This document shows positions 43,885-49,677 of a stretch of DNA of 64,000 nucleotides, piece by piece. This DNA is from an uncultured Selenomonadales bacterium (GTDB lineage Bacteria > Bacillota > Negativicutes > Acidaminococcales > Acidaminococcaceae): NCBI GenBank assembly GCA_900315345.1, contig OMYP01000002.1, positions 1-64,000 on the forward strand, in the 5' to 3' direction. The notes under the pieces were generated by a model. It searched no databases. It was not told where the DNA came from and worked only from the letters and a program-made list of their open reading frames with translations. The number at the start of each line of letters is the position of its first letter. The stretch's first letter is position 1. The translations under genes were made by a program, and so were the position numbers.

Positions 43885-44853
43885 CTATCCGATGGCCGTC
43901 AGGCCCCCGTCCACCGGTACCACCGCTCCCGTCATGAAGGAGTTGGCAGGGGACGCCACGCTGCAGATCACATGGGCAACTTCTTCCGGCAAAGCCACCC
44001 GTCCCAGGGGATACTCTGCCGCCATATCTTCTTTCGTATATCCGTCTCCGGCCGCCTTCAACTGTGCCTCCATCAGGGGCGTGTCCACGTCTCCCGGGCA
44101 GATGCAGTTGACCCGGATGTCTGGCGACATGTCCAGGGCCAGGGCTCTGGTCAGGGATACCACGGCGCCCTTGGAAGCGCAATACACCGGGCATCCGTAA
44201 TTTCCGCCGATACCTGCATCGCTGGCAATGTTGATTATGCAGCGGTCCTTTTTGCCGGGCAGGGTCTTCGCTGCTTCTGTTTCTTCAGACAAATTCCCGC
44301 CGGATCCGCTGCCGGGGATTTCCGCTTCTTCCCCGTGGGGCAGCATATAGGGCTGACAGGCCTGGATCATAAGCAGTGTCCCTTTTACATTTACATCCAT
44401 GATGCGGTTATAGTCTGCCGCCGTTACCTGTTCGATCCGTTTTTCCTGATACAGGCCGGCGCTGTTCACCAGAATGTGGATCCGTTCTTTTCCGTAATGG
44501 GCCGCAATGACGGCTGCCATACGGCAGTCCGCCTGTTTTGTTACGTCTGCCCGGATAAACCGCAGCCGTTCCAGGGCACTGTTTTCTGCGAAATCAGGGT
44601 CACTGCAGTTTTCTTCCTTTATTCCTTCCGCGGCAGTAAAGGTTTCCTTTCCTTCTTTTGCCCCCGGAAAGACGACACGCTCCGGATCTTTGCAGCCCGC
44701 TATCGCTGCCAGGGCCTTCATGCCCCGGACCCGGTCCCTTCCCACGATACTGACGCTGGCGCCGTCCAGCCAGAAGGCCCGGGCAGCTGCCAGTCCGATA
44801 CCGCTGGTGCCTCCGGTTATTAAAACGACCCTGTCGTTACATCCATACTCCAT
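43885..44853 (-). CDS. Short-chain dehydrogenase/reductase with two insertions
   Basis: A classical-type SDR: cofactor loop TGGTSGIG (13-20), NSAG, catalytic Ser in INIASDAG and the YCASK catalytic pair, then CPGDVDTP and a normal C-terminus (MTGAVVPVDGGLTAIG). At 322 residues it is about 70 longer than usual. The excess lies in two hydrophilic segments: about residues 54-86 after the second beta strand, and about 164-195 between the NSAG helix and the catalytic serine, the latter Gly/Ser/Glu-rich. Substrate unknown. The ATG is chosen for GAGG at 6 bases; it lies 28 bp after the sensor-kinase stop, suggesting co-transcription with the two-component system. Confidence 0.9.
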   Translation of the reverse strand: MEYGCNDRVVLITGGTSGIGLAAARAFWLDGASVSIVGRDRVRGMKALAAIAGCKDPERVVFPGAKEGKETFTAAEGIKEENCSDPDFAENSALERLRFIRADVTKQADCRMAAVIAAHYGKERIHILVNSAGLYQEKRIEQVTAADYNRIMDVNVKGTLLMIQACQPYMLPHGEEAEIPGSGSGGNLSEETEAAKTLPGKKDRCIINIASDAGIGGNYGCPVYCASKGAVVSLTRALALDMSPDIRVNCICPGDVDTPLMEAQLKAAGDGYTKEDMAAEYPLGRVALPEEVAHVICSVASPANSFMTGAVVPVDGGLTAIG

Positions 44854-44881: not shown

Positions 44882-46588
44882 TTACACCGACCCTTCCATT
44901 TCCGCTTCACTGAATTCTTCCGGCTTAGGCAGTTCCATAATGGCAGTCGCTCCTTTGCCGTATTCGCTCTTCATGCTGACGGCGATGGCATGGCGTTCCG
45001 CTATTTCCCGGGAAATGGCCAGCCCCAGTCCGCTGCCGGACTTGTTCTGTTCGCCCCGGGTCTTATAAAATCTGTCAAACACATGAAGCAGGTCTTCCGG
45101 TTTGATGCCGGGGCCGTGATCGGTCACGGTCAGCCTCCGGTTAGCCAGTTTGACTTCAACCGAAGAATTTTCCGGACTGAATTTTACGGCATTGTCCAGG
45201 AAGATCATCAGCATCTGGTTCAGCCGTCCGTAATCCCCCGTCATTTTATATACCGGCACATCCGTTTCGCATTTTACGGTGATGTTCTTTTCCCGGGCCA
45301 GATGTCTGGCGCTGCGTACCGCGTTCTGCACCACCTCGCAGAAGTTCAGCGGTTTCTTTTCAATAGGAAAGTCCGCGTTCTGCAGACGGGACAGGTCCAG
45401 CAGGTCGTTGATAAGCCGCTGCAGGAACAGGGTCTCGTCATACATAGTCTCATGATACCGTTCCACATCGGCAGGATCCGTTACCACTTTATCCCGCAGG
45501 GCTTCCAGACTGCCCCGGACCACCGTTACCGGCGTGCGCAGCTCGTGGGAGATGTTGGCGATAAACTCCTTCCGGATCTTTTCCGTCTGCTTCGTCTCCC
45601 GGTCTGCTTCTTCCAGCCGGCCGGCCATACCGTCCAAAGTTTCTGCCAGATCCCCGATCTCGTCCTTCTGCTGGACATAGCTGCGGGCTGTATAGTCTCC
45701 GGACGCCAGTTTCTCTGCCGTATCCTTCATCTTGTTCAGCGGTTTTGTAAATTTGTTGGACAGGAACCAGGCTACCGCCAGGGCCAGCACCAGGGCCAGT
45801 ACCAGGCATCCGCCGAATACTTCCAGGGCTTCACGGAAAGACTGCCGCAGGCCGAACACCGGGACCCGCAGCATCAGAACCCCTTCCACGCCGCCGTTTT
45901 TATCATATATGGGCGCCGTTGCCAGCACCATCATCTCATTGATCCGTTTATCAAATTCTTCCTGTACGGATGCTTCCCCTTTGAATCCTTTCCGGAACAT
46001 GTCCCGGTAGACCTGGGGCAGGGAACTGACCGTTGCGGTTCCCTCAAATACTTTGGGAATATCCCGTCCCTGGGGCCCTTTATGTTCTTCCACCCGTCCC
46101 CGGAAGTTCTGGGGGACTTCTTTCATATCCCCTTCCGGCAGATGGGTCCGTATATAGATGTTGCCATCTTTCCCCGCTACCCATACGTCATCGGCCGTAA
46201 TGATATTCACATAGGCGATGAGCCTGCGGGAACGCAGCAGTTCTCCGGGGTTAACAGCTTTGTCGGCATTTTCCCCGGAAGTTTTGGATTCCTGCCCGGA
46301 AGAGGCTGCGGACCTGTTATGATGGTCCTTCCCCTGCTGCCCGGAAGGCGTCTCCGGGGTATTTCGTTTTTCCTCCGCCCGTCTTTCTTCCCTGTGGCGG
46401 GAACGTTCCAGGTTATCCCCCATAATGGCGGCCACACTGGCAGCCCTGTGGCTCAGGGCCCGCTGCTGCCGTTCAATAAAGCTTTCCCTGAAAAAGTGTC
46501 CGAAAGAAAAGGCCATGACAAATGCGAAAACCAAAATGGCCAGCGCAAAATAGGCCGCCAGTTTCGCAGCTATTTTACTCTTAAACAT
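44882..46588 (-). CDS. Membrane sensor histidine kinase
   Basis: Architecture: membrane segment (about 10-30), extracytoplasmic sensor region (31-255), second segment (256-276), HAMP (277-330), HisKA with phospho-acceptor H348 in IANISHELRTPV, and HATPase with the N-box MIFLDNAVKFSP, DHGPGIKPEDL and GSGLGLAISREIAERH. The sensor region contains a highly hydrophilic, low-complexity stretch at about 62-115, then a PAS/Cache-like part (LIAYVNIITADDVWVAGKDG, then VLATAPIYDKNGGVEGVLML). The signal is not predictable from this. It follows its response regulator by 133 bp, a gap that contains a GC-rich hairpin (46604-46624). The partner operon of secreted His-rich protein suggests envelope or metal stress. 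Confidence 0.95.
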   Translation of the reverse strand: MFKSKIAAKLAAYFALAILVFAFVMAFSFGHFFRESFIERQQRALSHRAASVAAIMGDNLERSRHREERRAEEKRNTPETPSGQQGKDHHNRSAASSGQESKTSGENADKAVNPGELLRSRRLIAYVNIITADDVWVAGKDGNIYIRTHLPEGDMKEVPQNFRGRVEEHKGPQGRDIPKVFEGTATVSSLPQVYRDMFRKGFKGEASVQEEFDKRINEMMVLATAPIYDKNGGVEGVLMLRVPVFGLRQSFREALEVFGGCLVLALVLALAVAWFLSNKFTKPLNKMKDTAEKLASGDYTARSYVQQKDEIGDLAETLDGMAGRLEEADRETKQTEKIRKEFIANISHELRTPVTVVRGSLEALRDKVVTDPADVERYHETMYDETLFLQRLINDLLDLSRLQNADFPIEKKPLNFCEVVQNAVRSARHLAREKNITVKCETDVPVYKMTGDYGRLNQMLMIFLDNAVKFSPENSSVEVKLANRRLTVTDHGPGIKPEDLLHVFDRFYKTRGEQNKSGSGLGLAISREIAERHAIAVSMKSEYGKGATAIMELPKPEEFSEAEMEGSV

Positions 46589-46721: not shown

Positions 46722-47420
46722 TCAGGGGGTCTCTGTAATTTCAAACCGGTACCCTACGCCCCAGATGGTCTTCACCGCCCACCCGGGATGTTCGAAGGCG
46801 TCCAGCTTGGCCCGGAGCCGTTTGATATGGGAGTCTACGGTCCGGCTGTCTCCGAAGTAATCGTAGCCCCACAGGCTGTCCAGCAGGTTGTCCCGGGAAA
46901 AAACCTTCTTGGAATTGGAGGCCAGCAGCCAGAGCAGCTCTTTTTCCCGCTTGGTCAGCGAAACCTCCTGGCCGTCTATGGTCACCATATAATTATCGAT
47001 ATCGATCATCAGGTTGCCGACCGTAAGTTTCCGGGAACTGATCTCCTCCTGCTGGGGCATCCGCCTGAGGATCGCCCGGGCCCGGGCCATTACCTCCGCC
47101 GCGCTGAAGGGCTTGACGATGTAATCGTCGGCGCCGATATCAAGGCCCAGTATTTTATCGGCGTCTTCCCCCCGGGCCGTGATCATGATCACCGGTACCT
47201 GGGATGATGCGCGAATAGCCTTGCATACGGAGAACCCGTCCTTCTTCGGCATCATCACGTCCAGGAACACGATGGATATCTCTTTTGAAAATTCCCGGAA
47301 CACCCGCAATGCTTCTTCCCCGTCATAGGCAATATAGCAGCCCCATCCTTCTTTTGTGGCGTAATCTCTCAGCACTTTTGTAATCTGCGCGTTATCGTCC
47401 GCGATCAATACCTTGTTCAT
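46722..47420 (-). CDS. OmpR-family response regulator
   Basis: The receiver domain has the acidic pair D8/D9, phospho-acceptor D54 in IVFLDVMMPKKDG and K103 in DYIVKPFSA. The C-terminal winged helix spans about 130-230 (LTKREKELLWLLASN, then VFSRDNLLDSLWGYDYFGDSRTVDSHIKRLRAKL). The start MNKVLIADD has a G-rich Shine-Dalgarno; an 11-codon in-frame extension upstream is less likely. A near-consensus promoter precedes it, divergent from the promoter of the His-rich secreted protein, so regulator binding in the ~60 bp between them could control both. Confidence 0.96.
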   Translation of the reverse strand: MNKVLIADDNAQITKVLRDYATKEGWGCYIAYDGEEALRVFREFSKEISIVFLDVMMPKKDGFSVCKAIRASSQVPVIMITARGEDADKILGLDIGADDYIVKPFSAAEVMARARAILRRMPQQEEISSRKLTVGNLMIDIDNYMVTIDGQEVSLTKREKELLWLLASNSKKVFSRDNLLDSLWGYDYFGDSRTVDSHIKRLRAKLDAFEHPGWAVKTIWGVGYRFEITETP

Positions 47421-47457: not shown

Positions 47458-47486
47458 ATTATACATCAAAAATTTCGTCCTTACAA
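47458..47486 (-). promoter_or_regulatory. Promoter of the response regulator operon
   Basis: TTGTAA (47481-47486) and TATAAT (47458-47463) are 17 bp apart on the minus strand, about 40 bp before the start codon. Confidence 0.75.
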
Positions 47487-47526
47487 ATTGTAAAAAACAT
47501 TTTTTTGTTAAGAAAAAAACACGGTT

Positions 47527-47554
47527 TAGACATAAATCGAAGTTATGATATACT
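47527..47554 (+). promoter_or_regulatory. Promoter of the His-rich secreted protein gene
   Basis: TAGACA (47527-47532) is followed after 16 bp by TATACT (47549-47554), which is preceded by TGA, an extended -10. It lies about 60 bp upstream of the gene and 40 bp from the divergent regulator promoter. Confidence 0.65.
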
Positions 47555-47614: not shown

Positions 47615-48499
47615 ATGATGAACTGGAAAAAAAGCTTACTGACAGCAGGTATTTTGGCAACCGTTCTGGCCGGCACCGCTTTTGCGGCTACCGAAGCGGA
47701 AGATGCCGCAACACAGCAGAACGGACTGGACTACAATAACAAGATCGAGCAACAGGCTCCGGATACGGAAAAGGGCCGTCCCCCCTTTGCAATGGATAAA
47801 GACGGACATGGCCACCGCCGCCATCACGATGGCAAATTACACCGGCACCATGGGGGTCCCGGTCACCATCACGACGGGGAATTCCGCGGTCCGAAAGGCG
47901 GCCCGGGACACCATAAATTCCACGGCGAACATGGCAAGAAGATGCACAAACCCGGCAAACTGACTCCGAAACAGCGCCAGAAGCTGGCAAAAGAACGGGA
48001 AGAGTTCTTTGCCAACTGGAGCAGCATGTCTGACCGGGAACGCCGTGAAGTAACGGAACGTTTCATCAGCCGCGTCAACGAAGAACGCATGAAGAACATG
48101 ACGGAAGACGAAAAGAAGGTCTTTGAGAAACGCCAGGCCGAAAGAAAGGCAGAGCGGGAGAAGATCGCCAAGATGACCGAAGACGAACGTCATGATTATT
48201 TTAAGAAAAAACATGACGAAATGGTGAAGGAACGCACCAAAAACATGACCAAGGAAGAAAAGGAACGGTTCCTGGAGCGGGATAAACGCCAGCAGGAACG
48301 GATGGAAGAATTCTGGAAGAAATGGAAACAGATGACGCCTGAAGAAAAAGAGCAGTGGAAGAAAGATCATCAGCGTTTCGGTCCCCGGCACGGCGGCCCG
48401 GGACACGGACCCCGTCACGGTCACGGACCCGGACCGGAAGGTCCGCGGCACGGCCAGGGTCCCGAAGAGTCACGCCAGATGACGCCTCCGACAGCCTAA
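47615..48499 (+). CDS. Secreted His-rich protein with six LTxxQ-like motifs
   Basis: A Sec signal peptide (MMNWKKSLLTAG... cleaved after AFA near residue 24) precedes a His/Gly-rich stretch at about 65-111. The centre is charged and helical, with the motif (L/M)-(T/S)-x-x-(Q/E) recurring at residues 116 (LTPKQ), 138 (MSDRE), 162 and 187 (MTEDE), 211 (MTKEE) and 240 (MTPEE), spaced 22-29 residues. A second His/Pro/Gly-rich tail follows from about 255. CpxP, Spy and ZraP are small periplasmic helical proteins with LTxxQ motifs; this resembles their logic but is longer and I cannot confirm homology. Metal binding by the His segments is inferred. The divergent two-component operon is the likely regulator. 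A double ATG leaves the exact start open by one codon. Confidence 0.8.
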   Translation: MMNWKKSLLTAGILATVLAGTAFAATEAEDAATQQNGLDYNNKIEQQAPDTEKGRPPFAMDKDGHGHRRHHDGKLHRHHGGPGHHHDGEFRGPKGGPGHHKFHGEHGKKMHKPGKLTPKQRQKLAKEREEFFANWSSMSDRERREVTERFISRVNEERMKNMTEDEKKVFEKRQAERKAEREKIAKMTEDERHDYFKKKHDEMVKERTKNMTKEEKERFLERDKRQQERMEEFWKKWKQMTPEEKEQWKKDHQRFGPRHGGPGHGPRHGHGPGPEGPRHGQGPEESRQMTPPTA

Positions 48500-48834: not shown

Positions 48835-49677
48835 ATGAAAAAACGGAATTTACTGGCAGCAGGTTTTCTTGCATTTTCTGTCGTTACGGCAGGCTTCTGT
48901 TTCCCATATGGCGCCGATGCCGCAGCCGCAGGGGAAACCTATAAGGAAGGCGCCGTCGTTCCTGCGGATAAAGCGTCCGCCGTACGGAACGCCGCCCGGG
49001 AAAAGGCCATGGCTTCCTATTACATAACCGACGGTGAAAAATTCGATAAAGCCGTTTCCCTGCTGAAGGGCCTTGACCCGGAGGTAACAGGACTGGAACC
49101 CGGCGTAAGGTATTCCTTCCGTATGGATAAGACGTTGACCGGAGACTATTTTTATCATGTAAAGGCCTTTCGTCCCGGCTCTTCCAATACGGCCGGGGAT
49201 TATCTTCTGGCCAAAGATGACAGCTGCGCCTACCGCCGTTTTCCCGGTGAAAACCGGACGGAACTGATGGCCGGTACCACCGACAAGCTGCTGGAAAAGA
49301 CGGAAATTTACGCCCTTTACCGTAAAATTCCCATGGAAACCCCAATCCGGGTTTTTGTACGGGTTCCCGGAAACATCCCCTACACGCTGTCGGTGACCAG
49401 TTTAAACGAAAATATGATCTCTGTCAGTGAGGATGAAAGCGGACAACCCGTTATCTTTGGCATCGGACGGGGAAAAGCCGACGTGCTGGCGGAAGTTACC
49501 ATCGGCGGATTCAGTAAATCCAAGAAGGTAAATTACATCATTATGGATGATAAAGACCTGGAGCAGGAGGAGAACCGCTCCTCCGGCGGAGGGTTCCCCA
49601 TTGGCATCGGCATAGGTATCGGCATTGGCAGGGGACATCATCACGGCCACAGGGGCGGAGTCGTTATCGGAATTTAG
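48835..49677 (+). CDS. Secreted protein with Ig-like (Big_2-like) domain and Gly/His tail
   Basis: A 280-residue exported protein: signal peptide with a predicted cut after GADA (near residue 29), a central domain of unknown type (about 40-160, with GLEPGVRYSFRM and YFYHVKAFRPG), then about 175-238 a segment that reads like a bacterial Ig-like group 2 domain (SVTSLNENMISVSEDESG then FGIGRGKADVLAEV). The C-terminus is unusual: alternating Gly-Ile (IGIGIGIGIG at about 258-267) followed by RGHHHGHRGG. Function unknown; surface or wall association and metal binding by the tail are possible. GGGGGTG lies 8 bases before the ATG. A terminator follows. Confidence 0.8.
   Translation: MKKRNLLAAGFLAFSVVTAGFCFPYGADAAAAGETYKEGAVVPADKASAVRNAAREKAMASYYITDGEKFDKAVSLLKGLDPEVTGLEPGVRYSFRMDKTLTGDYFYHVKAFRPGSSNTAGDYLLAKDDSCAYRRFPGENRTELMAGTTDKLLEKTEIYALYRKIPMETPIRVFVRVPGNIPYTLSVTSLNENMISVSEDESGQPVIFGIGRGKADVLAEVTIGGFSKSKKVNYIIMDDKDLEQEENRSSGGGFPIGIGIGIGIGRGHHHGHRGGVVIGI

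Follow-up and report, generated by a model that had tools for sequence, protein, structure and literature searches.

The gene at positions 47615 to 48499 of the window, by which we mean the whole stretch of 64,000 nucleotides analysed (positions 1-64,000 of contig OMYP01000002.1, assembly GCA_900315345.1, from an uncultured rumen bacterium of the Selenomonadales, family Acidaminococcaceae), encodes P0001, a secreted His-rich protein of 294 amino acids. Named matches place the genome in the genus Succiniclasticum (S. ruminis DSM 9236, L081), with a relative in Phascolarctobacterium faecium DSM 14760 (L087). P0001 is 69-77% identical to nine other copies from the genus, and because of this conservation we take its open reading frame to be a real gene. 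The features of the locus are as follows.

43885-44847, minus strand: gene resembling short-chain dehydrogenases (by eye), kept downstream of the kinase gene in the locus comparison
44882-46588, minus strand: P0002, a HAMP/HisKA sensor histidine kinase whose long extracytoplasmic part has no assigned domain (domain and family profiles)
46722-47420, minus strand: OmpR-family response regulator P0003 (domain and family profiles)
47458-47486, minus strand: sigma70-like promoter of the regulator gene (site search), within a conserved block of the aligned gaps
47494-47507, plus strand: further AAAACATnnTTTTG copy, 22 bp upstream of the proximal one and kept in the genus (gap alignment)
47519-47549, plus strand: candidate operator/promoter element before P0001, one mismatch (pattern match)
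47615-48499, plus strand: P0001, secreted His-rich partner protein, 294 amino acids (open reading frame and orthologues)
47615-47686, plus strand: P0001 signal peptide, residues ~1-24, ending TAFA|A (read by eye)
47798-47950, plus strand: P0001 His/Gly-rich zone 1, residues ~62-112 of a zone that spans ~59-112, predicted disordered (AlphaFold2 and composition)
47960-48370, plus strand: P0001 helical core, residues 116-252, six motif-capped helices (AlphaFold2 pLDDT ~90 and motif statistics)
48380-48496, plus strand: P0001 Gly/Pro/His-rich tail, residues 256-294, predicted disordered (AlphaFold2 and composition)
48835-49677, plus strand: second secreted protein P0004, with a Gly-Ile repeat and a His/Gly-rich C-terminus (open reading frame and relatives); it matches no Pfam family above cut-off

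Regulator and P0001 genes are separated by a gap of 194 bp, in which a partner-side sigma70-like site (47527-47554, plus strand) faces away from that of the regulator (47486-47458, minus strand), the nearest ends of the two lying ~40 bp apart. The initial annotation had placed the P0001 promoter at about this distance from a divergent regulator promoter, opposite a two-component system, and the layout is as it described.

Motifs and predicted build of P0001

From its N-terminus P0001 comprises the signal peptide, a short conserved segment, a His/Gly zone, a charged helical core and the tail, with the His/Gly zones flanking the core; 15 of its 23 His lie in residues 1-111 and 5 in the tail. The core carries six (L/M)(T/S)xx(Q/E) motifs, at residues 116, 138, 162, 187, 211 and 240, spaced by 22, 24, 25, 24 and 29 residues; shuffled cores held 0.21 motifs on average and three at most, and none of 20,000 reached six. 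One of the six is a strict LTxxQ (LTPKQ, residue 116) and the other five are loose variants; proteins of the LTXXQ/Spy-CpxP kind usually have two strict motifs. Thus the signal peptide (as read by eye), the two His/Gly-rich zones and the six motifs at 22-29 residues, all claimed by the initial annotation, were found again here.

The same annotation had pictured the core as one long charged helix, in place of which AlphaFold2, run on an input of 14 sequences and read for confidence and secondary structure with the coordinates left uninspected, predicts several shorter, capped helices (118-132, 140-160, 164-186, 189-208, 213-239 and 242-252), with pLDDT ~90 across residues 112-255. Since each predicted helix begins directly after the T or S of a motif, the motifs are, in the model, helix N-caps. 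Such a role accounts for their regular spacing, and means that resemblance to LTxxQ could arise without common ancestry. A model of a compact relative of P0001 (type B, below) has helices at 72-87, 90-117, 121-147 and 150-159, with pLDDT ~95. Foldseek gave no match at E<=0.001 for either model; Z was low, neither Spy nor CpxP, with their hook-shaped helical hairpin, was retrieved (also with VIA-align), and the long charged helices matched many unrelated chains.

Partner genes across the Acidaminococcaceae

P0001 itself has matches in 14 of 61 related genomes, namely 13 of the 14 of its own genus (itself included) and one other. At the first 13 of these loci the regulator gene is present in all and the kinase gene in 12, the remaining contig ending inside the regulator gene. 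An orthologous kinase (match E<=1e-70) is found much more widely, in 49 of 59 family genomes, and we read its surroundings in all 49, in G007 around the regulator only, as the contig stops short of the kinase. Of the 49, 46 have a secreted partner gene; these 46 come from 16 genera, genomes of one genus not being independent of each other. The partner is divergent from the regulator in 33, just 5′ of the kinase gene and co-oriented with it in three divergent members of the P0001 genus (G008, G003, G009), within 4 kb in two (G015, G154), and on a contig other than that of the two-component system in eight (G227, G019, G032, G190, G252, G027, G022, G018). In two of the three kinase genomes where we found no partner (G020, G021) the contig breaks off, 161 and 194 bp upstream of the regulator respectively, and in the third (G187) the kinase is 32% identical. 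The comparison of neighbourhoods proposed with the initial annotation came out in its favour within this family: the partner is linked to the two-component genes well beyond the genus.

The partners fall into four types, the labels being our own (assignment was by eye for G016, G018 and G247, of which G247 offered just 43 residues). Type A, to which P0001 belongs, is elongated and His-rich (10, plus the 3 in the kinase operon); type B is compact, mostly of 146-216 residues, with LTPEQ/MTPEQR motifs (26), and is tandemly expanded in two genomes; type C is built from a different helical unit, present twice (6); and type D is a repeat protein without the motifs (1; G030, L070). The expanded frames (L174 and L175, in G019 and G032) are of 321-448 residues with repeated helical units. 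Two small secreted proteins (L071:7138-7665, minus strand; L074:3890-4216, plus strand), with repeated QDKATQxxxLxxNKxYDxxHGYxN units, resemble the type D partner of G030. In P. faecium (L028), genes that by eye are superoxide dismutase-like and Dps-like stand between partner and regulator. The regions 3′ of the partner genes do not align, and we dropped the idea of a conserved CpxQ-like RNA there.

Types A and B are related in their cores (hhalign probability 98.6%, score 90, against 18 for the best of 60 column shuffles), and it is the compact type B relatives that reach towards LTXXQ: against a comparison set of Spy, CpxP, ZraP and two Negativicutes proteins, their profile aligned with 61% probability (score 32.7; best of 200 column shuffles 15.9), a link that we regard as borderline. 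The type A profile, that of P0001, gave 0.3% against the same set. P0001 had no match to the LTXXQ family PF07813 (Pfam cut-off 24.3 bits) at E<=1; nor did any protein of the 59 family genomes at E<=0.001, with a positive E. coli control, and among class genomes three of 250 had matches. We therefore rejected P0001 as a direct LTXXQ homologue, and the homology to Spy/CpxP for which the initial annotation had suggested a profile check of residues 112-255 is not borne out.

With DUF3106 (PF11304) P0001 scores 13.0 bits (E 0.15), under the cut-off of 24.3 that four type B members exceed (L028 31.4, L060 29.3, L059 26.3 and L064 26.0 bits). Across 250 Negativicutes genomes DUF3106 has eight matches, every one a partner gene, and our literature search found no paper naming this family. 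Two type C proteins exceed the cut-off of 25 for DUF2680 (PF10925; L160 25.4, L208 26.5 bits), and no alignment of the type C body with types A and B clearly exceeded shuffles. An N-terminal ‘MRxxV’ peptide common to types B and C was also discarded, its score (11.6) being below that of the best of 80 shuffles (14.0).

The composition of P0001, with most of its 23 His in two Gly-rich zones around the core, might suggest a metal-responsive system, with these zones as ligands of Zn, Cu or Ni and the whole as a metal sensor in the manner of ZraPSR or CnrYXH. The His/Gly arrangement of E. coli ZraP is similar, and many compact relatives have His-rich tails. However, three divergent copies from the same genus as P0001 (L025-L027) have no such zones, which makes metal binding unlikely as a conserved core function. 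P0001 likewise has no match to the Metal_resist/ZraP-CnrX family (PF13801; in set A2, 3 of 15 members, best E 0.24), profile similarity to E. coli ZraP was not found, and the other candidate targets described below are efflux, lipid-transport and envelope genes, not metal transporters. We consider a metal response unlikely, and prefer to see in P0001 an accessory protein of the envelope.

A candidate promoter element and its putative targets

Alignment of the regulator-partner gaps gave a candidate element, CAT-N8-CATA-N9-TAnnAT, in which a CAT repeat at 11 bp is followed by a -10 at fixed distance. With at most one mismatch it precedes 40 of the 46 partner genes (type A 10/10, type B 25/26, type C 4/6, type D 1/1), against 13 of 900 dinucleotide shuffles of 45 of the 46 upstream regions; the three kinase-operon copies have neither the element nor His zones. 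As the pattern was fixed on divergent gaps, nine displaced partner genes could serve as an out-of-sample trial: eight have the element close before their start with at most one mismatch, and the ninth has it with two. In the genomes with a displaced partner the element is absent, where sequence is available, from the regulator's own upstream region. Judged by these comparisons, the element appears to follow the partner gene when this is moved, or replaced by an unrelated secreted type.

This mobility bears on whether P0001 touches the kinase at all. It could instead be an effector only, a Spy-like or ZraP-like chaperone or metal buffer whose adjacency to the kinase reflects co-regulation. The eight genomes with the partner on another contig keep the element (with 0-2 mismatches), replacement of the body by unrelated types would be odd for a specific kinase ligand, and E. 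coli spy is away from cpxRA, with no two-component system in its neighbourhood. Against this, 33 of 46 partners are divergently adjacent and three immediately precede the kinase gene, an arrangement that is typical for CpxP and ZraP. A role as effector only is thus a serious, if tentative, possibility; we keep as our working proposal an accessory protein that may also act back on the kinase.

In a family-wide scan a stricter form of the pattern matched 80 times, compared with 11 times when reversed (our own sums), and occurred in 45 of the 49 kinase-positive genomes and none of the 10 kinase-negative ones. The statement that kinase-negative genomes are without the element holds for this stricter pattern only, as g13 genomes and G010 retain a form of it before macA, and we do not maintain it more generally. 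In the genome of P0001 itself, 16 matches with at most two mismatches compare with 8 for reversed controls, and most of them are probably due to chance.

Among other candidate targets, 25 macA-like genes out of 30 have the element with at most one mismatch, against 2 of 600 shuffles. They include the first gene of a macAB-like operon of the P0001 genome (L247:1096-4104, minus strand; operon assigned by eye), which encodes a membrane-fusion protein with HlyD domains, an ABC ATPase and a permease. In 20 further macA-like genes the element, again with at most one mismatch, was found in 9/9 from g13 and 2/11 others. The g13 copies (L308-L316) have TTCAT half-sites where (G/A)(T/C)CATA is usual, which suggests a shifted regulator specificity. 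The element is likewise found ahead of MlaE permease genes in G032, G019 and G190 (one tested against Pfam, the other two assigned by eye), and four g16 genomes have it before the gene of the regulator. In six genomes it precedes genes for small basic secreted proteins. L207, L215, L222 and L206, which are secreted, short, basic and rich in His and Arg, stand right after good elements in several genera, and several of them end in GLIxGxxxGAxIANNT, which is glycine-zipper-like. Of 10 genomes of the Succiniclasticum genus, 4 (that of the window not among them) have the element, with one mismatch at most, upstream of P0004. The M23 peptidase was rejected as a general target, with the element in only 2 of 28.

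The regulator P0003 would be the likely protein to bind this element. Direct repeats at such a distance from a -10 are the geometry of PhoB/OmpR-type activation, and this geometry, together with the element before the regulator gene in g16, is the ground on which we infer binding. The element might instead be a generic strong promoter or another regulator's site, the neighbouring two-component system being incidental. In G010 (93% complete) a perfect element precedes the macA-like gene and we found no orthologous kinase, the kinase match at 1e-70 is missing in 8 of 9 g13 genomes, and the TTTNG core between the half-sites varies among targets; another or a diverged regulator may thus bind the element in G010 and g13. 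Yet most copies lack, by eye, a sigma70 -35 at the usual spacing, the stricter pattern separates kinase-positive from kinase-negative genomes as given above (though g13 keeps a variant), and in g16 the element stands before the gene of the regulator. Such an incidental association is decidedly unlikely in our judgement.

The half-site TTTTGYCATAA resembles the E. coli pho box, and P0003 scores 195 bits against PhoB (TIGR02154), with no response regulator of the genome above the cut-off of 296. One could therefore picture a PhoBR-type phosphate response, with P0001 as a secreted protein induced by starvation. However, a different regulator of the genome scores higher against the same model (232.7 bits; both are under 296), and we saw no pst, phoU or phosphatase genes among the targets examined. 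A phosphate response is very unlikely, and we return to control of the partner by its adjacent regulator in an envelope-stress setting.

Proposed role and known systems

At the level of sequence comparison, the conservation of kinase and regulator, the linkage of the genes and the common promoter element are established. With moderate confidence we propose that P0001 is the regulator-controlled, Spy/CpxP/ZraP-like accessory protein of an undescribed Acidaminococcaceae envelope-stress system; our literature search found no paper on CpxP in Negativicutes, nor on two-component envelope stress there. The adjacent regulator would bind the element and activate the P0001 gene, and might co-activate the macAB-like efflux operon and, in some genera, the MlaE permease, its own gene and the small basic secreted proteins. 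Once exported, P0001 would fold into a helical, strongly charged body, which may bind damaged envelope proteins or the sensor domain of the kinase, and so might buffer damage and damp the signal in the way that CpxP is reported to do. The tails rich in His and Gly would be a lineage-specific addition and may bind metal, as in ZraP. That the system senses envelope damage is suggested by the kind of its co-targets; feedback on the kinase, metal binding by the tails and chaperone activity are the least certain parts of the proposal.

The initial annotation had called P0001 a lineage-specific, elongated analogue of CpxP, Spy and ZraP tied to the adjacent system. The linkage, the element and the E. 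coli-like divergent layout speak for this, and the part that is not supported is homology, with no PF07813 match. The description is thus partly supported: P0001 appears to be an analogue in position, regulation and general build, its membership of the family being undemonstrated.

We also consider, at slightly short of an even chance, that in this family one regulatory slot, defined by an operator and the conserved regulator that uses it, has several times been filled anew with unrelated secreted proteins (DUF3106-like, DUF2680-like, elongated His-rich and QDxxTQ-repeat). If so, the accessory job would be selected for physical properties and not for sequence family. If our main proposal is right, it would define, for diderm Firmicutes of rumen and gut, a kinase, a regulator, an operator and a candidate regulon (accessory protein, macAB-like efflux, MlaE), and a Spy/CpxP-type partner could be traced via its operator once the protein sequence has become unrecognisable.

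Considering known families and systems, compact partners of other genera pass the DUF3106 cut-off, and P0001 does not; type C partners with the same element pass that of DUF2680, and their bodies are not clearly alignable with types A or B. ZraP/ZraSR is like the P0001 system in having His/Gly-rich segments around a helical core, encoded divergently from a two-component system (the E. coli cpxP/cpxRA and zraP/zraSR loci both have the divergent layout of the P0001 locus). It differs in that P0003 is of OmpR type whereas ZraR is a sigma54-dependent regulator (PMC7657598), and in the missing profile similarity.

CpxP/CpxRA shares with the P0001 system a secreted helical protein encoded divergently from an OmpR-type regulator and a kinase, and fast sequence drift: CpxP is reported to be 21.6% identical between V. 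cholerae and E. coli (PMC6737893). CpxP is an inhibitor of CpxA which misfolded proteins are believed to titrate away (PMC7657598, PMC12046405, PMC6737893). Compared with CpxP, P0001 is longer (294 against 166 amino acids), has six loose motifs with one strict LTxxQ among them, bears His/Gly tails, and is without detectable PF07813 homology. The kinase and regulator in turn stay under the equivalog cut-offs of BaeS (NCBIfam; P0002 174.7 bits, cut-off 500), BaeR (P0003 201.8, cut-off 380) and CpxR (P0003 174.4, cut-off 341).

In E. coli, BaeR is described as controlling both spy and the mdtABC efflux operon (PMC7657598, PMC12046405). The P0001 system differs from Spy/BaeSR in that its pump is MacAB-like and not RND, its partner gene is usually linked to the two-component system, and no match to the Spy fold was retrieved. 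In both, an exported helical protein and an efflux operon are apparently placed under one regulator, and in this Spy/BaeSR is, with Cpx, the closest parallel to the system proposed here.
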